Of a stretch of DNA of 34,446 nucleotides, positions 6,739 through 34,446 are shown one piece after another. Position 1 is the stretch's first letter, and every line of letters begins with the position of its first letter. Origin of the DNA: Victivallales bacterium (GTDB lineage: Bacteria; Verrucomicrobiota; Lentisphaeria; Oligosphaerales; Oligosphaeraceae). Made by a program: the position numbers and the translations under genes. The notes under the pieces were generated by a model, which was not told the DNA's origin, searched no databases, and saw nothing but the letters and a program-made list of their open reading frames with translations. The stretch spans positions 1 through 34,446 of the forward strand of contig JAFZWH010000108.1 in assembly GCA_017617415.1 (NCBI GenBank), given 5' to 3'.

Positions 6739-7797
6739 ATGGAACGTCTGGATTACTTCATCCGACGGCTTTTGCTGTTGATCCCCACCTTTCTGGGGAT
6801 TACGTTGCTCTGTTTCCTCATCACGCAGTTTGTGCCGGGGGGACCGGTGGAGCAGCTGATGCTCCAACTGCGTGGCATGGGGGCTGGCGGCGAGGTCTCG
6901 CTGGCAGCGGGCACTTTAGGTGGCTCGTCTGCCAGCGACCAGAGTGCGGAAGCCGAACGCCAGGCGTTCGTGAAGCACTTTGGTTTTGATCAGCCAGTGC
7001 TGGTGCGCTACTGGCGCTGGCTGTGGCATGACCGTTGCGGGATGCTCGCGCGTTCCTACAAGTTCTCGAACAAGACCGCATGGGAGATGATTTCGCAGCG
7101 GTTCCCTGTGTCGCTGGCCTTCGGGCTGACCAGTTTTGTTTTCACCTATTTGGTGTGTATCCCCCTCGGCGTAGGCAAGGCACTGCGTCACGGCGAACCC
7201 TTTGACTTGTTCTCCAGTGTGCTGGTGTTTGTGGGATACGCGATTCCTGTCTTTGCGCTGGGGATGCTTTTTAAGATGCTCTTTTGCGGCACGGTTGAAG
7301 GGCTATGGGATATCTTTCCCGCCGCCGGTTTTCATGCCCCGAACTACGCCGAGCTGAGCTTTTGGGGCAAGGCAAAGGATGTCGTGTTTCACATGTTCCT
7401 GCCCATCCTCTGCTATATGGCGGGGGCCTTTGCCATGCTTACTTTGCTGATGAAAAACTCATTGCTGGAGCAAATCAACAGCGACTACATTCGGACAGTC
7501 TATGCGAAAGGCGGCAGCACTGCCCGTGCACTGTGGGGACATGCCCTGCGCAACGCACTGGTGCCAGTGGCCACCGGATTTGGCGGCATTCTTACGGTGA
7601 TGTTCGCGGGGTCCGTAATTATCGAGCGCGTCTTTGAGATTCCAGGCATGGGCAATCTCAGTCTGGAGGCGATTGTCGGGCGCGACTATCCCGTGTTCAT
7701 GGGCATTTTGGCTCTGACCTCCATCCTTGGACTGCTTGGCAACATCCTCTCCGATTTCTGCTATGTTCTCATCGACCCTCGCATCAATTTCAACTGA
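6739..7797 (+). CDS. ABC transporter permease, YejB/DppB (peptide/microcin C) type
   Basis: This is a 352-residue inner-membrane subunit of a peptide-type importer. It begins with the family N-terminus RRLLLLIPTFLGITLLCFLI (first membrane helix) followed by FVPGGP. A periplasmic loop ends in FGFDQPVLVRYWRWL, and five more helices follow. The EAA loop that contacts the ATPase is present (YAKGGSTARALWGHALRNAL), as is the C-terminal ERVFEIPGMG. The insertion of about 35 residues after FVPGGP resembles YejB rather than DppB. I use the ATG at 6739; the TTG before it adds only one residue. No second permease, ATPase or binding protein is adjacent, which is unusual for this family. Confidence 0.88.
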   Translation: MERLDYFIRRLLLLIPTFLGITLLCFLITQFVPGGPVEQLMLQLRGMGAGGEVSLAAGTLGGSSASDQSAEAERQAFVKHFGFDQPVLVRYWRWLWHDRCGMLARSYKFSNKTAWEMISQRFPVSLAFGLTSFVFTYLVCIPLGVGKALRHGEPFDLFSSVLVFVGYAIPVFALGMLFKMLFCGTVEGLWDIFPAAGFHAPNYAELSFWGKAKDVVFHMFLPILCYMAGAFAMLTLLMKNSLLEQINSDYIRTVYAKGGSTARALWGHALRNALVPVATGFGGILTVMFAGSVIIERVFEIPGMGNLSLEAIVGRDYPVFMGILALTSILGLLGNILSDFCYVLIDPRINFN

Positions 7798-7849
7798 GGC
7801 GACTTTTTCATATTTCTCATACCAACCCATCAAAAAAGAAGGACACACG

Positions 7850-8929
7850 ATGACCAAGAAACTCTCTTTCCTTGCCCTGTTTGTCGCCACCGCAATGCTT
7901 TGCGCGGCTCCCGCACTCTCCGTGAAGAACGCCTTCCTGCCGGATGCGGGTTTTGCGCTCTCTATGAATATTGAGGCCCTCAACAAAAGCTTCCTGGGTG
8001 AATATGTGAATCATGACGCACTCAAGGAATTCGCCAAGTTTGCGGAGTTTGAGTTCAATCCCAATGATCCCAGTCAAGCGATGTTCAAGGCGTTGCTGGA
8101 AAAGTCAACCATCACCGTGGTGACTGCTATCACGGTCCCGGAGATGTTCGAAATCAATGACAAGCCGGAGGCGGCGGCCCAGAAGGCGATGGCATGCATC
8201 CAGCTCCCGCAACCACTTGGACCGATGGTGGACACTGCCGTTGTCGCACTCACCAACATCAAAGAGGAGGGCGTTACCGTTGTTCCGAATATCATTAACG
8301 AATGCAAAGGTGTGTTGGTGACTAAAGAGGATGGCACCCGTCTTGCGCTGAATTTCTCCGCCGACGGCAGACTGCTGTTCGTGGGCTTGCCGGAACTGCT
8401 CAAGAAGCAACTGACGGATGAGGCGGCCGCCGCTGCTCCTGCGAAACTGGTCGATGCAAATGCGAGTGGTTTGCCGGGCGCATTTGTTTCCCTGAGCATT
8501 CTGGTGACCGAGACCCTGAAGGCCGCAATTTCCGCAGAAAGTCCCGAGTCCGCTGCCTTTGCCTCTACGGTCGAGACGCTCAATCTCTCTGCGGCACCGG
8601 CGGGGGGGGATGCTGTTAATCTCAAACTGGCCGGCAACTTCATTACCCCGGAGATCGCTGGTTCCGTCAAATCGATGGCGGACGAGTATGTGCCCCAGGT
8701 GAAGGCAATGGCGCCAGTGCTGGCCAACGGCCAGGAGGTGCCGTTCCTTGACACCCTCAATGCGATCCAGAACGGCAATGCCGTCAGCCTCTCCTGCACT
8801 TTGATCCAGAAGGACATCGAAATTATCGGACAGGTCGCCAAAGCAGCTTTCATGAGCGCGGCGGTCGACAACGATGATGATGCCGATGATGATGACGATG
8901 ACGACGGCGTGGAAGTCGAGGAACTGTAG
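7850..8929 (+). CDS. Exported protein with acidic Asp-rich tail, function unknown
   Basis: This 359-residue protein starts at ATG 7850, six bases after GAAGGA (7838-7843); an in-frame upstream ATG at 7727 lies inside the permease gene and is rejected. Residues 1-23 form a signal peptide (MTKKLSFLALFVATAML, then a small-residue cleavage region). The body is a mixed alpha/beta sequence without cysteines in pairs or catalytic motifs I can name. The general pattern of repeated self-similar halves recalls secreted DUF3352-like proteins, but I do not claim this. The C-terminus is a run of about 11 Asp with few breaks before GVEVEEL, suited to binding cations. It ends the transcript that begins upstream, before a strong terminator. 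Confidence 0.75.
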   Translation: MTKKLSFLALFVATAMLCAAPALSVKNAFLPDAGFALSMNIEALNKSFLGEYVNHDALKEFAKFAEFEFNPNDPSQAMFKALLEKSTITVVTAITVPEMFEINDKPEAAAQKAMACIQLPQPLGPMVDTAVVALTNIKEEGVTVVPNIINECKGVLVTKEDGTRLALNFSADGRLLFVGLPELLKKQLTDEAAAAAPAKLVDANASGLPGAFVSLSILVTETLKAAISAESPESAAFASTVETLNLSAAPAGGDAVNLKLAGNFITPEIAGSVKSMADEYVPQVKAMAPVLANGQEVPFLDTLNAIQNGNAVSLSCTLIQKDIEIIGQVAKAAFMSAAVDNDDDADDDDDDDGVEVEEL

Positions 8930-8951
8930 TTTGTAATCATTCCGAAACGCC

Positions 8952-9007
8952 AATTGCCCCGTTTGTTCGCGGTCGGGCAACGGGGCAATTTCTGTCTTTG
9001 CCTTTTT
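8952..9007 (+). terminator. Rho-independent terminator after the exported acidic-tail gene
   Basis: AATTGCCCCGTT (8952-8963) and AACGGGGCAATT (8979-8990) form a perfect 12-bp stem with a 15-base loop, followed by T-rich sequence ending in TTTTT (9003-9007). Confidence 0.8.
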
Positions 9008-9101
9008 ACAATTCTACGGGGGCTTAGCCCCCGCACCCCTGCTGTTCCCTTCCTGCGCACCGGCCCTACAATTCTACGGGGGCTTAGCCCCCGCACCCCT
9101 G
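9007..9101 (+). repeat. Two direct copies of a CGGGGGCTTAGCCCCCG hairpin element
   Basis: A 35-base element with TACAATTCTACGGGGG at its left end occurs identically at 9007-9041 and 9067-9101, exactly 60 bases apart. Each has the hairpin GGGGGCT/AGCCCCC. A related inverted copy lies upstream of rarA at 24430-24466. CTCATTC heptamer units (9112-9125) fill the space to the xseA start. Confidence 0.85.
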
Positions 9102-9129
9102 ACGTTTTCTCCTCATTCCTCATTCCTCC

Positions 9130-10401
9130 ATGATGCCCCATGACCCCAATTTTGCCTGGACGGTCGGTGAATTGAACCGATATGCCCAGAGTGTGGTCAA
9201 AGAGCATCTGGGCGATACAATCTGGCTGTGCGGCGAGTTGGGACGCATCCAGCCGAATGCCAGCGGGCATGTCTATGGCGTGCTCAAGGACGAGCAGGGG
9301 AATTCCATCAACATCGCCTTTTTCGGAGGCGCGAGGAAAGTTGCTCCATTGCAGCTGGCGCCAGGTTCCTGTGTGCTGGTAAAGGGGAACCTGGATCTCT
9401 ATGTGGCTGGCGGCTCATACCAGTTCATCGTGCGGGAACTCGTGCCGGCGAATACCCAGGGCGGTTTGATGCAGCGTTACCTGGAGACGCGGAAACGACT
9501 GGCAGACGAGGGGCTTTTTGCCCCGGAACGCAAAAAGGCGTTGCCGCTGTGGCCAAAGTGCGTGGCGGTCATTACCAGTCCCTCCGGCGCGGCATTGCAG
9601 GACTTTCTAAAAACCGCATATTCGCGGGTGCCAAATCTGCATCTGCGCATTGTGGCATCTCCGATGCAGGGGCAGGGGACTGCCACGAAAGTCGCATCTG
9701 CCGTACAGTGTCTGAATGCGTGGAATGCCTGTGATGTCATCGTGATCACGCGTGGCGGCGGTTCGATGGAGGACCTCTGGGAGTTCAACGACGAGGCACT
9801 GGCGCGCGTCGTCGCTACTTCGGAGATTCCCGTGGTCAGTGCGGTCGGACATCAGATTGACGTCACGATGCTGGACTATGTGGCGGACGTCTCGGTCATC
9901 ACCCCGACACAGGCCGCCAACGCGGTTACCGAGGGCGTGCTTCAATTGGCGACTGCGGTGGACCAGGTTGCCCAGCGGTTGCCACGCGCGATGCGTCATC
10001 TGTTGGACACTGCACGACTGCACTTTACCCGCGTAGCCAGTTGCGCCTATCTTCAGCATCCACAGGACCTCTACCACCAGCAGGCGCAGCGGCTCGACAA
10101 TGCACAGTTGCGGCTGGCAAACGCACTGCCCGGTCGTGCCCGCGAACTGCGGTTGCGGCTGGACGAATTGCGGCGGCGTCTCCCCGAGGCCATTACGCAT
10201 ACCATGGCGGAACGTCAGGCGCGCCTGAAGAATCTTGCATTGCCATTGGGGGCGCTGGATCCCAAAGGCGTGCTGAAACGAGGTTACAGCATCTTGCTGG
10301 ATGGCGACCAGAAAGCCATCCGCAAACCGCAGGACACCCGTCCTGGTCAGGAAGTCACCGCATTGCTTTCGCAGGGGAAACTCAAACTGGAGGTTAAGTA
10401 A
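9130..10401 (+). CDS. xseA: Exodeoxyribonuclease VII large subunit
   Basis: This 423-residue protein is the catalytic subunit of exonuclease VII, which degrades single-stranded DNA from both ends and acts in repair. An OB-fold domain comes first (WLCGELGRIQPNASGHVYGVLKD). The catalytic domain follows, with the hallmark RGGGSMEDLWEFNDE, the SAVGHQIDVTMLDYVAD segment and TPTQAA. A long Arg-rich coiled-coil region then ends with the conserved LDPKGVLKRGYSI block. The start may be either of two adjacent ATGs (9130 or 9133); neither has a Shine-Dalgarno site, only CTCATTC heptamers. xseB starts two bases after its stop, so the two subunits are co-transcribed and probably coupled. Confidence 0.95.
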   Translation: MMPHDPNFAWTVGELNRYAQSVVKEHLGDTIWLCGELGRIQPNASGHVYGVLKDEQGNSINIAFFGGARKVAPLQLAPGSCVLVKGNLDLYVAGGSYQFIVRELVPANTQGGLMQRYLETRKRLADEGLFAPERKKALPLWPKCVAVITSPSGAALQDFLKTAYSRVPNLHLRIVASPMQGQGTATKVASAVQCLNAWNACDVIVITRGGGSMEDLWEFNDEALARVVATSEIPVVSAVGHQIDVTMLDYVADVSVITPTQAANAVTEGVLQLATAVDQVAQRLPRAMRHLLDTARLHFTRVASCAYLQHPQDLYHQQAQRLDNAQLRLANALPGRARELRLRLDELRRRLPEAITHTMAERQARLKNLALPLGALDPKGVLKRGYSILLDGDQKAIRKPQDTRPGQEVTALLSQGKLKLEVK

Positions 10402-10403
10402 TT

Positions 10404-10637
10404 ATGGCAGAAGAACTCAAATTTGAAGAAGCGTTGAAGAAGTTGGAGGAGATCGTCGCGAAGTTGGAAAGTGGCGAGTTGTCCTTGGAGGAAAGCATGG
10501 CAGCCTTTGAACAGGGAACCAAATTGTGCAAGCAGTGTAATGCCAAACTTACCGAAGCCGAGAAGAAGATTGAACAACTTGCCAAGGTCACGGACGGACA
10601 GCCCGAATGGACCGATGTTACTCCGCCAACTGAATAG
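10404..10637 (+). CDS. xseB: Exodeoxyribonuclease VII small subunit
   Basis: This 77-residue helical-hairpin protein partners XseA; several small subunits coat the large subunit's coiled coil. The family core is evident: FEEALKKLEEIVAKLESGEL, then SLEESMAAFEQGTKLCKQCNAKL, then AEKKIEQL. The length is typical (about 75-80). GGAGG (10389-10393) inside the end of xseA is ten bases before the ATG, consistent with translational coupling. Confidence 0.95.
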   Translation: MAEELKFEEALKKLEEIVAKLESGELSLEESMAAFEQGTKLCKQCNAKLTEAEKKIEQLAKVTDGQPEWTDVTPPTE

Positions 10638-10681
10638 TCAGATGCTGACGGAATGGTATTGCAGGGGAAGATTATACAAAT

Positions 10682-12865
10682 ATGTCCAAAATTGTCCAGA
10701 ATTGTCGATATTTTATCCGTCGTCATTGGCGTGGAATCGCCTGGTGCGGAGGTAGTGCAGTTGCAGGGGGCCTACTTGCCGTGGGCTGCATTTACTGGTG
10801 GATGCTTCAGCAGCGAGTTCCGCCGGACGCGTTAGCGGCGTATCGCCATAGTACCTATTATTATGACGGCCATGGCGAACTTTTCCACATTGAACGTGGC
10901 AGCGACTACCGCTGGAGTTTTCCGGTGCCGTTGCGTGAAGTCCCTGCCACAATGGTGGAGGATGTGATTGCGGTGGAGGACCGCCATTTCCGCACGCATC
11001 ATGGCGTGGATTACCGGGCGATGCTTCGGGCGACCTGGCAGATGATTACTTCACGTCGAGTGATTTCCGGCGGTTCGACCATCTCGATGCAAATCGGCAA
11101 CCAGTATTGCGGACGCGGCAAAGGCGTCCTCTACAAATTGCGTCAGATTGGTCGTGCTTGGAACTGGGAGAAGGAACACACCAAGGACGAAATTCTGGAG
11201 GAGTACTTCAATCTGCTCCCCTACGGCGGGATGATCTATGGCGTGGAGGCGGCCGCGCGCTTCTATTTCGGCCGTCCCGCCCGCGACCTTAATCGTGCGG
11301 AGCAACTGGTGCTGGTGGGAATGCCTCAGGGACCGAATTACTATCGCCCGGACCGCCATCCTGACCGCGCGATTTGGCGCCGCGATGTCGTGCTGGCGAT
11401 TCTCCAGCGCGCAGGGCGCGTCACTGCGGAAGAGGTCGAAGAAATCAAACGCCAGCCGTTGCGCTATCGGGATTTTGAGGTGCCAGCGTGGCCAGTCTCT
11501 GAGGAATTGCAGTTCCTGACCTATGTCCATCAACAGTATCCCAATCGGCGTGAATATCATACGACAATATATCCTGAACTTCAGCAGATGGTGGAAGTGC
11601 AACTGGCTAAAGGACGACTTGTTGCTCCTGGAGTAAAGGACGGGGCGGCGGTAGTGATTGAGACCGCGACCGGAAAGGTGCGGGCAATGGTTGGAACCTT
11701 GCCGGATGGCGATGTCACCGCCGAGGCGGTCAATGCCGCGCTGGCCTGGCGGTCGCCCGGTTCGGCGCTCAAGCCCTTCCTCTATGGCGAGGCAATCCAG
11801 GGCGGTCTAATTACTGCCGATACCGTCTTGCAGGATACACCGTTAGCGCTGGCGGACTATCGGCCCGCGAATTTCGATGGTAGTTACCGCGGGGAGGTTT
11901 CCGCTGCAGTTGCGCTGGCGGAGTCCCTGAACACGCCAGCCGTACGGTTATTGCGGCAGTTGGGGTTGCCGCGCGTACTCCAGGAAATGGCACCACTGGA
12001 ACTCTTCAAAGACGAGCAGGTGTCCACCGAGGAGGCGCGAAAACAGACCGCCGCCCGAACCGGTCTGAGTCTGGCGATTGGCGGACTGGAGACGCGTCTG
12101 CTTCAACTCACGGCGGTCTACTCCGCATTGGGACGGTATCGTCCGCCACGTTTTCTGGAGGATGAACCAGAGGTGGAACCGCAGGAGTATTGGTCTTCCG
12201 CCACTGCCATGTTGCTCCTGAAGATGCTGCGCACGCGGCGATTGCCCGGCGCGGGAAATCTCGATGTTGCCTGGAAGACGGGGACCTCCAATGGCAACCG
12301 CGACGCCTGGTGTTTCGCGGTCACGCCGGAATGGACGGTCGGGGTGTGGTTTGGAAACAAGTCGGGTGCGCCGAATTCTGGATTGGTCGGCGCCGCCATT
12401 GCCGCGCCGGTGGCGGGCGCATTGCAGTATTATCTCCACCACGGCTTACCCGCCGATTGGCCGGAACCGGACGAGGCCGGGCTGGCCATGCGACCACTTT
12501 GCCGCGCCAGCGGTCTGACACCCTCGCCATTCTGCCGGGATACCCAGCCGGGGCTGGTGGTGGAGGCAATCCCACTCCGACGCTGTGACCAATGTCGGAA
12601 TGAGGCGACGATGGAACAGACCGTCGTCGGGCAGACCGCGAAACTGCTGACGCCTGCCCCTGGGACCTATCGTGCGGACCGCACGGGGAAGATTTCCTTC
12701 ACTTTGGCTATGGAACCCGCCGAGGCGCATGTCTATCTGGACGGCGAATATCTTGGCCGGCTGAACTCTGGCGAGCCGATGAGCCTGGAGCCTGGCCCGC
12801 ATCGCATCCTCGTGTGGCCAGGCGAGGACTGGGAGCCCGCCCAAGCCACCATTGTGGTGCAGTGA
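10682..12865 (+). CDS. pbpC: Penicillin-binding protein 1C
   Basis: This 727-residue bifunctional peptidoglycan synthase has one membrane helix (about 19-41). The glycosyltransferase 51 domain carries AVEDRHFRTHHGVD (catalytic Glu99), GGSTISMQ (130-137) and the FNLLPYGG motif. The transpeptidase domain carries SALK (Ser361 nucleophile, Lys364), SLN (415-417) and KTG (532-534). A C-terminal BiPBP_C domain (about 610-727) with a Cys-rich start marks the 1C class, as in E. coli PbpC. No alpha-2-macroglobulin gene (yfhM partner) is adjacent here. The ATG at 10682 lies 11 bases after AGGGGAAG, a weak ribosome site. Confidence 0.93.
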   Translation: MSKIVQNCRYFIRRHWRGIAWCGGSAVAGGLLAVGCIYWWMLQQRVPPDALAAYRHSTYYYDGHGELFHIERGSDYRWSFPVPLREVPATMVEDVIAVEDRHFRTHHGVDYRAMLRATWQMITSRRVISGGSTISMQIGNQYCGRGKGVLYKLRQIGRAWNWEKEHTKDEILEEYFNLLPYGGMIYGVEAAARFYFGRPARDLNRAEQLVLVGMPQGPNYYRPDRHPDRAIWRRDVVLAILQRAGRVTAEEVEEIKRQPLRYRDFEVPAWPVSEELQFLTYVHQQYPNRREYHTTIYPELQQMVEVQLAKGRLVAPGVKDGAAVVIETATGKVRAMVGTLPDGDVTAEAVNAALAWRSPGSALKPFLYGEAIQGGLITADTVLQDTPLALADYRPANFDGSYRGEVSAAVALAESLNTPAVRLLRQLGLPRVLQEMAPLELFKDEQVSTEEARKQTAARTGLSLAIGGLETRLLQLTAVYSALGRYRPPRFLEDEPEVEPQEYWSSATAMLLLKMLRTRRLPGAGNLDVAWKTGTSNGNRDAWCFAVTPEWTVGVWFGNKSGAPNSGLVGAAIAAPVAGALQYYLHHGLPADWPEPDEAGLAMRPLCRASGLTPSPFCRDTQPGLVVEAIPLRRCDQCRNEATMEQTVVGQTAKLLTPAPGTYRADRTGKISFTLAMEPAEAHVYLDGEYLGRLNSGEPMSLEPGPHRILVWPGEDWEPAQATIVVQ

Positions 12866-12915
12866 AAAGTTGCCATTAGACCGACAGTTTGCCCAAGACG
12901 GGACATATTATCCGC

Positions 12916-14790
12916 ATGGACCTCTTTGATTTTGCCAACCAGAATAGCCAGAGCCGGATTGCGGAACTGGAAGCGGCAATTCGCCGTGCGAACGACCTCT
13001 ATTGGAACCAGAATGCGCCGGAAATCTCCGATCCGGAATATGACGCGCTGGTCGAGGAGCTCAAGCGCCTGGACCCCGCGAACCCACTGGTCACGCAGAT
13101 CGCGTCGGTGGAACTGAAGGGGCCGAAGGTCACGCACTCGAAGCCAATGCTCAGTCTGGACAAGGCGTATAGCCTCGCCGAAATCATGAAGTGGGTGACC
13201 AAATACGCCCGCACGCCACAGGAGAAAATCTACATCCAGCCAAAATTCGACGGCATCAGCGGTCTTCTTGAACACGGCGTACTCTCCAGCCGCGGGGACG
13301 GCGTGACCGGCGAGGATTATACCGCGAAACTCCCCATCATCCGATTCGTCACGGACAAGCCGGTCGATATACGCACCTCGGAATTGCTGGGCGAAATCGT
13401 GATCGGCAACGAGGCATTCGCGACGGTTTACCGCAAGGTTCTCGGCAAGAGCGGTCAGCCGCTCAAGAACCAGCGCAACGGCGTGGCTGGCATCATCGGC
13501 ACCGATGACATCGAGTTCTACCGCAAGCAGGGCGCATACTTGGAATTCGTGGACTACGACTACATCCGCTTCGAGGTCCAGGCCAACGAAATCGAACGCG
13601 ATTGGGAGAAGATCAAGGAGCGCATTGCCACGACCGTCCCGTATCCGATGGACGGCATTGTGCTGAAACTGGTGGATGCGCAATATGCGGAATCGCTGGG
13701 GGCGACCGACCACCATCCCCGCGGCGCCATCGCCTACAAGTTCACCAACCGTAGCAAGAAGACCACGCTCAAAGACATCGAGTGGACGATGGGCAAGCGC
13801 CAACTCTCGGCGGTCGGTCTGCTGGAGCCGGTGGAACTCGGCGGGGTCACAATCTCCCGCGTGAAACTTCCGCTCACCATGCCGGTGGTCGGCGAAATGA
13901 ACAAATGCCTGCTGGACGGCTCGCTGAGCGTGGGGGACGAGATCACCGTGGAGCGCGCCGGCGATGTGATTCCGCATCTGATTGATGCCGTGCATACAGC
14001 GACCAGCCGTCCCGTGAAGTTGGAATCGTGTCCCTTCTGCGGCGGAGCGCTGGCAGTCGGCGAGACAACGGTGGAATGCGTGAATCCCTCCTGCAGTGAG
14101 AAGCAGGTGCAGAAACTCTACGCGTCCATTGTGAGTCTGGGCTTTCTGGGCATCGCCGAGGCGTTCATTCGCAAACTCTACGAAAACAATGGCATCCGCA
14201 CGCTGGGGCAACTCGTGAATCTCCAACCCGGCGACTTGGACAAGAAAATCTACGGCGACAAGACGACCGACCTCTTCTTCAGCGAACTGGAGAAGGCGAA
14301 GAAGGCATCGTTATCGGCGTTTCTGGCTGCCTTGAACATTCCGATGGTGGGCAGCAATGTCGCAGGCCTGCTCACGGCAAACTGCGATGCGGAGGAACTG
14401 CTCGCCGGCCAAATTCCCGCCGAAAAACTCCAGGGCATTAAGGGGATTGGCGAGGTGGTCGCGCAGAATGTCGTCACCGAAATCCGCAATTTGCTGGAAA
14501 GTGGTGAGATGGCATTGCTGCGGAAGGCCTTCCCGAGTTTTGCGGTGGCACCTGCGGCGGCTCCATCTGGCGAGACGATTTGCTTCACAGGCGCGATGAG
14601 CCGTCCGCGTGGTGAGTTGCAGAAAATCGCTGCCGAACACGGCTTCGTGCCAGTGGACTCGGTGACGCGGAATACGAAAATACTGGTGTGCGCCGACCCG
14701 AACAGCGGTTCCTCCAAACTCAAGAACGCCGCCAAACTTGGCGTGCGCATCATCTCCGAGGCGGAATTCTGGAAACTCGTGGAGAAATGA
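12916..14790 (+). CDS. ligA: NAD-dependent DNA ligase
   Basis: This 624-residue enzyme seals nicks in replication and repair using NAD. Domain Ia comes first, with NDLYWNQNAPEISDPEYDAL contacting NAD. The adenylation domain has the KFDG motif (Lys110, the AMP-accepting lysine) and SRGDGVTGED. An OB fold follows, then a zinc finger with Cys372, Cys375, Cys388 and Cys393, then helix-hairpin-helix repeats and a C-terminal BRCT domain from about 550 (CFTGAMSRPRGELQ). It is somewhat shorter than the usual 660-680 residues but no core motif is missing. I use the ATG at 12916; an upstream TTG (12889) only adds nine unconserved residues. It ends in repeat sequence facing comEC. Confidence 0.94.
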   Translation: MDLFDFANQNSQSRIAELEAAIRRANDLYWNQNAPEISDPEYDALVEELKRLDPANPLVTQIASVELKGPKVTHSKPMLSLDKAYSLAEIMKWVTKYARTPQEKIYIQPKFDGISGLLEHGVLSSRGDGVTGEDYTAKLPIIRFVTDKPVDIRTSELLGEIVIGNEAFATVYRKVLGKSGQPLKNQRNGVAGIIGTDDIEFYRKQGAYLEFVDYDYIRFEVQANEIERDWEKIKERIATTVPYPMDGIVLKLVDAQYAESLGATDHHPRGAIAYKFTNRSKKTTLKDIEWTMGKRQLSAVGLLEPVELGGVTISRVKLPLTMPVVGEMNKCLLDGSLSVGDEITVERAGDVIPHLIDAVHTATSRPVKLESCPFCGGALAVGETTVECVNPSCSEKQVQKLYASIVSLGFLGIAEAFIRKLYENNGIRTLGQLVNLQPGDLDKKIYGDKTTDLFFSELEKAKKASLSAFLAALNIPMVGSNVAGLLTANCDAEELLAGQIPAEKLQGIKGIGEVVAQNVVTEIRNLLESGEMALLRKAFPSFAVAPAAAPSGETICFTGAMSRPRGELQKIAAEHGFVPVDSVTRNTKILVCADPNSGSSKLKNAAKLGVRIISEAEFWKLVEK

Positions 14791-31702: not shown

Positions 31703-31960
31703 TATCCTTCAAGGCAGTTTTGAATCCTTTTGCGGTGGCGTTTCCAGGGGTGCTTGTTGTGGACCACCGAAACAATTTTCATGTCGTCATGTCGCTGAAA
31801 GCGGTCAAAAAAAGATATTGAATAAAAAATGCTCATTGGATAAATTTTGTTCAATCATGGGGTTTTTGTGTTCCATGGCGAGAAATTTCTTCAAGAGGGG
31901 TTATTTTTGAGGAACTTGTAGGCTTGATGGTGGTCTAAGTTGCCATCGAGATGGAATTTC

Positions 31961-31976
31961 TGGCACGCCCTTTGCT
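31961..31976 (+). promoter_or_regulatory. Sigma-54 (RpoN) promoter of the exported protein at 32049
   Basis: TGGCACG-CCCT-TTGCT fits the -24/-12 consensus TGGCACG-N4-TTGCW exactly. GG (31962-31963) and GC (31974-31975) are separated by the required 10 bases. Transcription would start near 31987, giving a leader of about 62 bases with GGGAG (32035-32039) before the ATG. Such promoters depend on an NtrC-type activator that would bind upstream. Confidence 0.75.
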
Positions 31977-32048
31977 CTATGCTTGCATAAAGTTTCCTCG
32001 GGGCTAAAATCCGTTTTATGTGTGTGAACTGTTTGGGAGTTCGCAATA

Positions 32049-33008
32049 ATGAGAAAACTCTTACTTTCGTTATTGACGGCGTTTTTGTGTGTGGCCTCAT
32101 GCGTCGTTTACGCGCAGAACTGGGGCAAAGTGACAGTGTATGCCTCGTGGGAGCTTATCACGGATTTCGGCATGGGGGGAGCAAGCCGTGTTGCATACAT
32201 GGCGATTGGCGACGCCAATCAGCAATGGGATCCCTATCCGCCAGGCACCCCTGACAATGCCAGTAACATACTGGCGCTTGAAGTCGGTGACAAGAATTAC
32301 AAGCAAGTGTCGAACCATGTGAAAATTGACCTGAATTCCCCGGCGAGTTTCGAGACGGATTGGCTGCTTCAGTTCTCCACCACGACCGGCGTCCCCGCGA
32401 AAGTGACCATCCGGTGCCTGTCCAACCAGTTGCCGAATCCGGCATCGCTGAAGCTCCGGCTGCTGGCGGTGGATGGCAGCGAAGTGGAGATCACGGCGGT
32501 CACGGCGGGTTCGTCCCAGGAGGTGGAGGTGCTTTCCGAAGCGGCGCCGAATACTCTGATGGCGACCTACGAGGTGCCGCTGGTGAACGGCGTGGAGTAT
32601 GCCCTGAACCTGGCTCCCGGCTGGAATTTGGTTGGCATTCCCTTGCTGGAGGTCACCGACGATGGTGGACTCTTGCATCATGCGGTGTTGCACTTGAACA
32701 GCGTGATTACACATGTTTCCGAACTGCGGCAAGGTGCAGCATATTGGGTGTACAACAATGCAAACGCAGTTGCAATAGTGACACTTAAGGGAACGGCCTA
32801 CATTGGCGAGAAAAGCGCTCTCGCCAATGACCTGACGACGGGTTGGAACTATGTCAGTCTGGCAGGCACCGTCAAAGACTCTACTACCAAGGAGTTCGCT
32901 CCTGCGGAGTCGCCCTCCAATCAGATTTGGCGCTGGGATGCATCGAGGCAGAGTTTTGTCCAGGATTCCGTGCTGGAACTTGGCGCGGGTTATGTGATCA
33001 AGAATTAG
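32049..33008 (+). CDS. Exported protein with paired GWN...GY domains, sigma-54 controlled
   Basis: This 319-residue protein has a signal peptide (MRKLLLSLLTAFLCVASC, cleavage near residue 22 after VYA). The first part (about 23-190) is beta-rich. The second part has two copies of a pattern found in secreted proteins of Planctomycetes-like groups: APGWNLVGIPL...AYWVYNNAN and TTGWNYVSLAG...GAGYVIKN. No catalytic motif is visible; it may bind or display something at the cell surface. Because it lies behind a sigma-54 promoter, its expression is probably conditional. It ends before the duplicated promoters of the next exported protein. GGGAG nine bases before the ATG fits the start. Confidence 0.78.
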   Translation: MRKLLLSLLTAFLCVASCVVYAQNWGKVTVYASWELITDFGMGGASRVAYMAIGDANQQWDPYPPGTPDNASNILALEVGDKNYKQVSNHVKIDLNSPASFETDWLLQFSTTTGVPAKVTIRCLSNQLPNPASLKLRLLAVDGSEVEITAVTAGSSQEVEVLSEAAPNTLMATYEVPLVNGVEYALNLAPGWNLVGIPLLEVTDDGGLLHHAVLHLNSVITHVSELRQGAAYWVYNNANAVAIVTLKGTAYIGEKSALANDLTTGWNYVSLAGTVKDSTTKEFAPAESPSNQIWRWDASRQSFVQDSVLELGAGYVIKN

Positions 33009-33077: not shown

Positions 33078-33142
33078 CTGGTAATTTTCTTTGCGCTACT
33101 ATAGTCCTGTCCATTGGTAAATTTTCTTTTTGCTACTATAGT
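33078..33142 (+). promoter_or_regulatory. Duplicated sigma-70 promoter before the surface protein
   Basis: Two near-identical promoters lie 36 bases apart. The first has CTGGTA (33078-33083), 16 bases, TATAGT (33100-33105). The second has TTGGTA (33114-33119), 17 bases, TATAGT (33137-33142). Both share TTTTCTTT in the spacer and CTACTATAGT at the -10. This reads as a tandem duplication of one promoter. The ATG at 33191 follows AGGA with seven bases of spacing. Confidence 0.75.
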
Positions 33143-33190: not shown

Positions 33191-34446
33191 ATGAAAAACA
33201 AATTCTCCGTCGTTCTGACGACTTTGGTGTTGATTGGTCTCACCGCCACCACCTTCGCCGCTTTCACGGTGGATGTGAAGATCGGCTCTGCCGATGCCGG
33301 CGTTTCCCTGACTTTCGGGGCAGGTACTTCTCAGGAGCAGCCATTTCCGCCCGTCTCCCTGATGTTCGGTGTCAAGGACGTCTTCCTGGCCAATCCTGCC
33401 AATTTCACTGCCGCCGCCGATGTCTCTGGCGACCTCTCCCGCCTCTCCGTGGATGTGCGCTCAGGCGCCACCCAGTGGGTCATCGTCGCCAACTCGGACG
33501 CCACGCTCCACTTCGCCAAGTCCTCCGGGACCCCAAAGCTCTACTACGGTGCGCTTGTTCCGAATCCTGAGATGACCAGCTATGAGAATGGTCTCATCTA
33601 TGAAGCAGGCGGCGTGCTGGGCGACAGCCTGAGCGTCACTGCCGGCGGTTTCTACACCATCAGCACCGCCAGTGTCACCGAGGCCAATGTGGCGAAAGTC
33701 TCCGATGACGAGGCGAACATCACCATCTACGCCGTGGACCTCGACGGCTCCGGGGCCTTCACCAACGACTGGACACCCGCTCCGGGCACGGCCTCTGACG
33801 CCGACACTCTCCACATCGCTGCCACCTCCACCGGCATCTACTTCACGGACGGCGCCAAATACTGGAGTCTGGACGACGGCACCTCCAGCACCACCGCCCC
33901 TGAAAGCTACTCCGCCCTCATCACCGTGGACGGCGCGACCATCAGCGCGCTTTCCAACTACGCCTTGAGCCTCTCAGGCACGCCATCCGAACTGAGCCTC
34001 TCCGCTGGCTCCACCGCGCAGCCGCTGACTACCACCCTCGCCAATGGTGCCGGAAAGATTTCCGCCATCACCTGGATCATCAAGACCTTCGGCACTCTCG
34101 ACTTCGACCAGAACGGCGTGGTGGACTTCAACGACACCATCTTCTTCTACAACTTCGTGACGCAGGGCGGTTCCGCCGCCGAACTCTCCGCCGCCGACCT
34201 GATGCTCTTTGCGGAGGAAACCGCCAACCTTGAGGCCGAGGCCCAGACCGCTTTGGACTATCTGAATGCCAAAGAGGCCAGCCTGGCTCTGGACGGTACC
34301 GTGTTCGAGTCTATCGACGACCTCTACGACAGCGCCATCTATTTCTACAACTACATCACCCAGGGCGGTGCCGCCGCCGAACTGACGCCTGCGGACATCT
34401 CGCTGTTCACGGTGGATCCGGATGACACGGACAAGGCGCAGGTCGC
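33191..34446 (+). CDS. Secreted protein with dockerin-like repeats, runs off the window
   Basis: The frame is open from 33191 to the window end (418 residues seen). A signal peptide (MKNKFSVVLTTLVLIGL, cleavage near residue 25) is followed by about 270 residues of beta-rich, Ser/Thr-rich sequence. At 304-315 lies a dockerin/EF-hand loop, DFDQNGVVDFND, with calcium ligands Asp304, Asp306, Asn308, Asp312 and Asp315. The helix after it, TIFFYNFVTQGGSAAEL, recurs about 66 residues later as AIYFYNYITQGGAAAEL, without an intact loop before it. This looks like an extended dockerin-like repeat protein displayed or assembled outside the cell. The end, and any further repeats, lie outside the window. 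Confidence 0.82.
   Translation, partial: MKNKFSVVLTTLVLIGLTATTFAAFTVDVKIGSADAGVSLTFGAGTSQEQPFPPVSLMFGVKDVFLANPANFTAAADVSGDLSRLSVDVRSGATQWVIVANSDATLHFAKSSGTPKLYYGALVPNPEMTSYENGLIYEAGGVLGDSLSVTAGGFYTISTASVTEANVAKVSDDEANITIYAVDLDGSGAFTNDWTPAPGTASDADTLHIAATSTGIYFTDGAKYWSLDDGTSSTTAPESYSALITVDGATISALSNYALSLSGTPSELSLSAGSTAQPLTTTLANGAGKISAITWIIKTFGTLDFDQNGVVDFNDTIFFYNFVTQGGSAAELSAADLMLFAEETANLEAEAQTALDYLNAKEASLALDGTVFESIDDLYDSAIYFYNYITQGGAAAELTPADISLFTVDPDDTDKAQV

Follow-up and report, generated by a model that had tools for sequence, protein, structure and literature searches.

The genome of a Victivallales bacterium carries, ahead of a gene for an exported protein, a stretch that reads as a complete −24/−12 box, and the question that we address here is whether this box is a genuine sigma-54 promoter and, if it is, which genes it would serve and through which upstream element it would be activated. 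The window, by which we mean the whole stretch of DNA that was analysed, is 34,446 nt long, and the features at the box are the following.

31961–31976, plus strand: sigma-54 promoter box TGGCACG-N4-TTGCT (TGGCACGCCCTTTGCT), an exact consensus match that is conserved at gene A in genomes G001, G002, G003, and G015.
31987, plus strand: predicted transcription start, placed from the position of the box, approximately 12 nt past the GC of the −12 element.
32035–32039, plus strand: ribosome-binding site GGGAG, 9 nt before the ATG, read from the sequence.
32049–33008, plus strand: gene A, an open reading frame with orthologues that encodes a 319-aa exported protein, the signal peptide being recognized by eye.

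A preliminary description of this DNA had reported a complete −24/−12 match with GG-N10-GC spacing before a start codon with a ribosome site, and this is what the window holds: the GG of TGGCACGCCCTTTGCT lies at 31962–31963 and the GC at 31974–31975 with 10 bases between them, the first T of the box is 88 bases from the ATG of gene A at 32049, and a transcription start near 31987 would give a leader of approximately 62 nt. To obtain a chance expectation we used a first-order Markov model of the window, which predicts 0.016 exact matches to TGGCACG-N4-TTGCW in the window, 8e-5 on the correct strand in the 300 bases upstream of gene A, and about 1.5 in the genome. Apart from TGGCACGCCCTTTGCT, the window holds no exact match. 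If two mismatches are allowed, the window has 12 matches versus 7.6 expected and, thus, only the exactness of the box is informative. In the genome to which the window belongs (G000; 3.2 Mb, 176 contigs, 91.5% complete), we found 10 exact boxes and no match to the reversed pattern. The looser pattern TGGCAYRN4TTGCW gave 15 sites versus 1 reversed in G000 and 55 versus 5 in five relatives, that is, 70 versus 6 in the six genomes pooled. A chance match at TGGCACGCCCTTTGCT, with transcription of gene A left to a different sigma factor, would accord with the roughly 1.5 exact matches expected per genome and with the exact box on contig C174, one of the 10, which is followed by no more than a short possible reading frame; however, the expectation of 8e-5 in 300 bases and the conservation of the box in four further genomes, another genus included, make this explanation highly improbable, and on these figures together with the counts against reversed patterns (10 vs. 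0; 70 vs. 6) we reject it. Judged from sequence, TGGCACGCCCTTTGCT is a real site, beyond chance expectation.

The conservation of the box was assessed by a search for homologues of gene A in 148 genomes, all of which are fragmentary assemblies or drafts. Matches were found in 33 genomes and extend along most of the length of the protein in six, namely G000–G003, which belong to one genus, and G005 and G015, which belong to a second. The closest named relatives of gene A are in Victivallales assemblies from sheep rumen, water-buffalo abomasum, and goat abomasum. Five of the six genomes (G000–G003 and G015) have the box ahead of the full-length homologue: it reads TGGCACGCCCTTTGCT in both G000 and G001, TGGCATGCGCCTTGCT in G002, TGGCATGGTGTTTGCT in G003, and TGGCATACACCTTGCT in G015, the representative of the other genus, and G005 has only a degenerate version, TGGCACGTCCTATGCC. 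Its first base is 88, 89, 87, and 175 bases from the ATG in G000, G001, G002, and G003, respectively, and the corresponding distances are 97 bases in G015 and 144 bases in G005. Owing to its longer leader the G003 box was misplaced in the alignment of upstream regions and was positioned by direct scanning. When the coding strand of the gene A loci was scanned with a looser box, G001, G003, and G015 each gave the site ahead of A, the G003 locus gave an additional looser match in its interior, and the G005 locus gave no match.

The protein encoded by gene A had no significant match in Pfam and NCBIfam searches or in a profile search of solved structures (best E value 0.16), and AlphaFold models of it were unusable, with a mean pLDDT of 38.5 for the single sequence and 47.2 when four sequences were supplied. 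A lipobox reading V-A-S-C was considered and dropped because, as read from the alignment, it is not conserved in G001 or G003. Residues ~185–319 form a C-terminal domain with the signature GWN...GYW that is also present in large open reading frames of other genomes of the class. Five of the 31 loci examined for this domain are the full-length A homologues. For the remaining 26, the stop lies within 70 residues of the end of the match in 24, the match continues past the edge of the locus in one, and it lies away from the terminus in the last. This position suggests that GWN...GYW is a C-terminal module of surface proteins in the class, possibly one that has not been described before. The 26 loci and the features downstream of gene A in the window are as follows.

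L029–L052, L097, and L098: loci with the GWN...GYW domain in relatives.
33080–33142, plus strand: duplicated element GGTAATTTTCTTT...GCTACTATAGT (33080–33105 and 33116–33142), perhaps serving gene B as a sigma-70-type promoter or an operator.
33191–34444, plus strand: gene B, an open reading frame that the end of the window truncates; its exported product has EF-hand/dockerin-like repeats.

The EF-hand_8 match of B is weak (E value 4.9e-6) and lies below the Pfam cut-off. Contig C33 overlaps the end of contig C17 by exactly 141 bases and continues with the remaining part of B and then with three further genes, C (1,496 aa), D (320 aa), and E (1,203 aa), and all of these genes are co-directional. 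The product of gene C is a repeat protein of very large size. In G001, the protein from D has a match to an outer-membrane β-barrel family and that from E has matches of the Ig and β-propeller types. The order A-B-C-D-E is the same in G000, G001, G003, and G005, which are all four loci complete enough to check, with C of G003 split into two reading frames; G015 has A-B-C as far as its contig end, and the G002 contig ends soon after A. The earlier proposal of a sigma-54 promoter ahead of a gene for an exported protein is upheld in its promoter, and its one-gene scope gives way to a unit that is probably a five-gene locus. Because the 182-base gap between A and B contains, in addition to the duplicated element, a sigma-70-like pair (TTGGTA-17-TATAGT), B–E may have a promoter of their own that is separate from the sigma-54 box. 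At the place of the duplicated element G001 has CCACTAGTGG and CCACTATAGTGG.

The promoter call had been tied in the preliminary description to the presence of rpoN and RpoN activators in the genome, and G000 encodes both. The rpoN gene is complete, as a single 553-aa open reading frame on contig C47 in which the activator-interacting, core-binding, and DNA-binding domains (PF00309, PF04963, and PF04552) all score above the cut-off, which attests to presence and not to activity. A PF00158 search of the genome gave 11 matches, five of which are strong sigma-54 activators; the activator loop is GAFTGA in four of these bEBPs and GAYTGA in one. Named after their contigs, the five are the following.

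C72: REC-AAA-HTH activator with an adjoining PAS-HisKA kinase, in six of six genomes with gene A.
C3: receiver-like-AAA-HTH activator, in six of six genomes with gene A.
C136: GAF-AAA-HTH_8 activator, NifA-like, among the six genomes in G000–G003 only.
C24: activator with an unusual N-terminus, in four of six genomes with gene A.
C92: CARF-AAA-HTH activator, among the six genomes in G000 only.

An activator of this kind would be expected to have a binding site upstream of the box, and two candidate sites were compared.

31943–31954, no strand assigned: inverted repeat CCATCGAGATGG, not conserved and of a type common in the window; judged incidental.
31819–31853, no strand assigned: 35-bp AT-rich dyad, candidate enhancer (UAS), conserved in four of four genus members.

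The first of these had been put forward as the activator site. CCATCGAGATGG is an imperfect palindrome of two 5-base arms around the 2-base loop GA, and the window has 53 such inverted repeats, or about 0.65 per 420 bases; the 420 bases before gene A have two, the second being TATGCTTGCATA at 31978. The number of symmetric positions at this place is 10 of 12 in G000, 8 of 12 in G001, 6 of 12 in G002, and 4 of 12 in G003, and G001, the closest relative, reads TCGTAGCGATGA there. Because such repeats are common and the symmetry is lost in G001, G002, and G003, leaving no conserved dyad beside the box, we rejected CCATCGAGATGG as an activator site.

The second site, TGAATAAAAAATGCTCATTGGATAAATTTTGTTCA, was found by alignment of the upstream regions. 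Its symmetric positions number 22 of 35 in G000, 24 in G001, 30 in G002, and 26 in G003; this symmetry is matched by 243 of 1,000 shuffles in G000, where it is not unusual, and by none of 1,000 in G002. Since the G000 dyad alone is not unusually palindromic, the case for the element is built on its conservation across the four related genomes. In G002 the best 35-base window agrees with G000 and G003 at 56 of 70 positions, and the maximum among 300 shuffles was 43. With up to three mismatches the dyad pattern occurs at one place per genome in G000–G003 and nowhere in the other genomes of the set of 148, including G005 and G015, and a control with the reversed pattern in the same genome search gave no matches. 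The gene upstream, which we take from reading the protein sequences to be nadB in G000 and mnmG in G002 and G003, differs between these genomes, and dyad, box, and gene A stay together. The center of the dyad lies 126, 126, 106, and 104 bp from the −24 GG in G000, G001, G002, and G003, respectively, within the usual enhancer distance of 70–150 bp upstream given in PMC3844500. The difference of 20–22 bp would equal two helical turns, which with few independent events is only suggestive. We, therefore, regard the conserved dyad 104–126 bp upstream as a better candidate for the activator site than CCATCGAGATGG.

The dyad can also be read in another way. In G000 and G001 it contains a weak −35/−10 pair with a 17-base spacer (TTGAAT-N17-TAAATT), and it could be a sigma-70-type promoter, or the operator of an unrelated regulator that provides gene A with a second input. 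The box would then be genuine as a sigma-54 promoter and would serve gene A alone, and the separate sigma-70-like element of B fits with this. However, the hexamers change to ATGAAC/TAATTT in G002 and ATGAAT/TAATTA in G003 while the symmetry rises to 30 and 26 of 35, and the dyad falls in the usual enhancer range, once per genome, at gene A. We consider this reading unlikely and prefer the dyad as a candidate enhancer.

The other sigma-54 boxes of these genomes provide a frame of reference for the dyad. Some of the 70 boxes precede related genes in two or more genomes, among them gene A (five genomes), dnaK (four), carA (four), glutamine synthetase III (three), grpE (three), a C10-type peptidase (two), and clpB (two), with the identity of one member of each checked by Pfam. 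Boxes in several genomes therefore precede classic sigma-54 targets (carA, glutamine synthetase III [GSIII], and glutamate synthase) and also dnaK and grpE. Alignments revealed TTTTTACAAAAWTGTAC as common to the upstream regions of carA, GSIII, and gltB and GGTGCGACA-N4-TGTCGCAT as common to those of dnaK and clpB; the chaperone element did not show in the grpE promoters.

L009, L149, L115, and L143 (carA) and L004, L150, and L142 (GSIII/gltB): nitrogen-gene loci with TTTTTACAAAAWTGTAC.
L008, L130, L141, and L137 (dnaK), L136 and L112 (clpB), and L105, L151, and L140 (grpE): chaperone loci with boxes.

A matrix scan of up to 71 upstream stretches, those shorter than 60 bases being skipped, found the dyad at gene A only, the nitrogen element at nitrogen genes only, and the chaperone element at dnaK and clpB only, with no strong cross-matches among the three; because the matrices were built from the loci that they rank first, only the absence of cross-matches is informative. 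TTTTTACAAAAWTGTAC scores 30–33 at carA, GSIII, and gltB and 10.3 at its best listed match upstream of any gene A (G015), and GGTGCGACA-N4-TGTCGCAT scores 25.7–30 at dnaK and clpB and 6.2 at its best listed match upstream of any gene A (G001), which places gene A outside both classes, and a link of gene A to either element was rejected. TTTTTACAAAAWTGTAC is itself a candidate NtrC-type site in this order, and the chaperone boxes with the element shared by dnaK and clpB possibly mark a branch of sigma-54 heat-shock control in Victivallales. A cross-phylum regulon survey (PMC12316311) reports a sigma-54 link for heat-shock genes of Planctomycetota and Bacteroidota, grpE and dnaK among them, and here, similarly, boxes precede dnaK, grpE, and clpB; a word search of the main text of that survey gave no occurrence of "Lentisphaer."

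Three further sets of sites were seen in this survey. A C10-family peptidase gene (L139:722–1999 and L153) with an apparent signal peptide, whose box and upstream region are conserved in G002 and G003, is a second exported sigma-54 target. On contig C92 of G000 (L058; features at 6943–6958, 7045–11261, 11340–12983, 13151–14087, and 14323–14338) a prokaryotic viperin (NCBIfam NF038283, 268 bits vs. a cut-off of 180; PADLOC pVip) is preceded by an exact sigma-54 box at a distance of 94 bases from its start, and its neighbors are the CARF-AAA-HTH activator (PADLOC RtcR_PspF2) and a pair of genes encoding 820 aa and 586 aa with an exact box of their own. This is apparently a sigma-54-controlled defence locus, and our literature search found no paper joining viperin and sigma54. 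The C24 activator gene (L062:3524–5529) follows an exonuclease-like gene, and a similar RNase_T-type exonuclease gene on contig C157 (L010) has an exact sigma-54 box.

Which of the five activators would act at gene A can be narrowed in part. The preliminary description had suggested a two-component or NtrC-like signal, and a kinase and NtrC-type regulator pair does exist in C72, although nothing ties it to gene A and the nitrogen-gene element is absent there. A stricter version, in which the C72 pair, retained with its adjoining PAS-HisKA kinase in all six genomes with gene A, activates A along with the nitrogen genes, has the same TTTTTACAAAAWTGTAC scores (10.3 at best vs. 30–33) against it and appears to us quite improbable. 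Activation of the A promoter by C72 or C3, taken jointly, is in our judgement only a little short of an even chance, and a smaller share than that of C136 is left for something other than these three. C24, which was not found in G002 and is present in G015, a genome that has no dyad, and C92, found in G000 alone, are disfavored. C136 has the same presence pattern as the dyad among the six genomes (both in G000–G003, neither in G005 or G015); this argument is weak because it comprises a single evolutionary contrast and C136 orthologues are also found in other genera that have no full-length gene A, so that we dropped the view of C136 as genus limited. As a single activator C136 is, nevertheless, our weak favorite, held tentatively. 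Its best NCBIfam match is NifA (TIGR01817), with which it shares the GAF-AAA-HTH_8 architecture, and it differs in scoring below the NifA cut-off (480 vs. 528.85 bits). NifA-type sites have the motif TGT-N10-ACA, and none is present upstream of gene A; no nif genes were seen by eye in the 12.9-kb stretch around C136.

Taken together, we consider it likely that 31961–31976 is a functional sigma-54 promoter for gene A, probably for A-B-C-D-E, that would be activated by a bEBP on the dyad and yield surface proteins. Under this model sigma-54 RNA polymerase would wait in a closed complex at TGGCACGCCCTTTGCT, an activator of the bEBP class would bind the dyad at 31819–31853 and, looping over the ~126 bp between them, would open the complex with ATP, and transcription would run from the box through A and probably through A-B-C-D-E. 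The output would be a cell-surface set composed of A, B with its calcium-binding-type repeats, C, the predicted outer-membrane β-barrel D, and the Ig/β-propeller protein E. Counting against this model are the degenerate box of G005, the lack of the dyad in G005 and G015, and the distance of 175 nt between box and start in G003 compared with 87–89 nt in the rest of its genus.

The arrangement resembles known sigma-54 promoters with a bEBP enhancer: its box and spacing agree with those of the Salmonella sites in PMC3844500, the genome has a complete RpoN with bEBPs, and a dyad, the candidate enhancer, lies 104–126 bp upstream. It differs in that the dyad is ~35 bp, AT rich, and unlike both other upstream-element classes of these genomes. 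Control of the bacterial exterior by sigma-54 is the theme of Francke et al. (2011; PMC3162934), which an exported and probably surface-bound gene set fits, whereas the survey in that paper deals with polysaccharide, flagella, LPS, lipoproteins, and peptidoglycan and the target here is a repeat-protein locus in Victivallales. When the main text of the survey was searched by word, neither Lentisphaera nor Verrucomicrobia nor Planctomycetes turned up. Our literature search likewise found no paper joining Victivallales and sigma 54 or Victivallis and RpoN.

The close relatives found here are known solely from ruminant-gut metagenome assemblies. As far as its sequence tells, the locus adds a further case to an established type of gene switch, with a sigma-54 promoter, a candidate enhancer, and a surface-protein locus in ruminant Victivallales. 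A bolder proposal, which is possible although we hold it to be doubtful, is that the dyad is a previously undescribed type of enhancer with a dedicated activator, perhaps C136, through which one small-molecule or redox signal would govern a five-protein surface assembly apart from the nitrogen and chaperone branches. The target of the promoter is probably larger than was first thought, and the enhancer candidate is well defined and testable. The predicted regulon, with three separable classes of upstream elements for nitrogen genes, chaperones, and the surface locus, would offer entry points to sensing and surface building in these bacteria.
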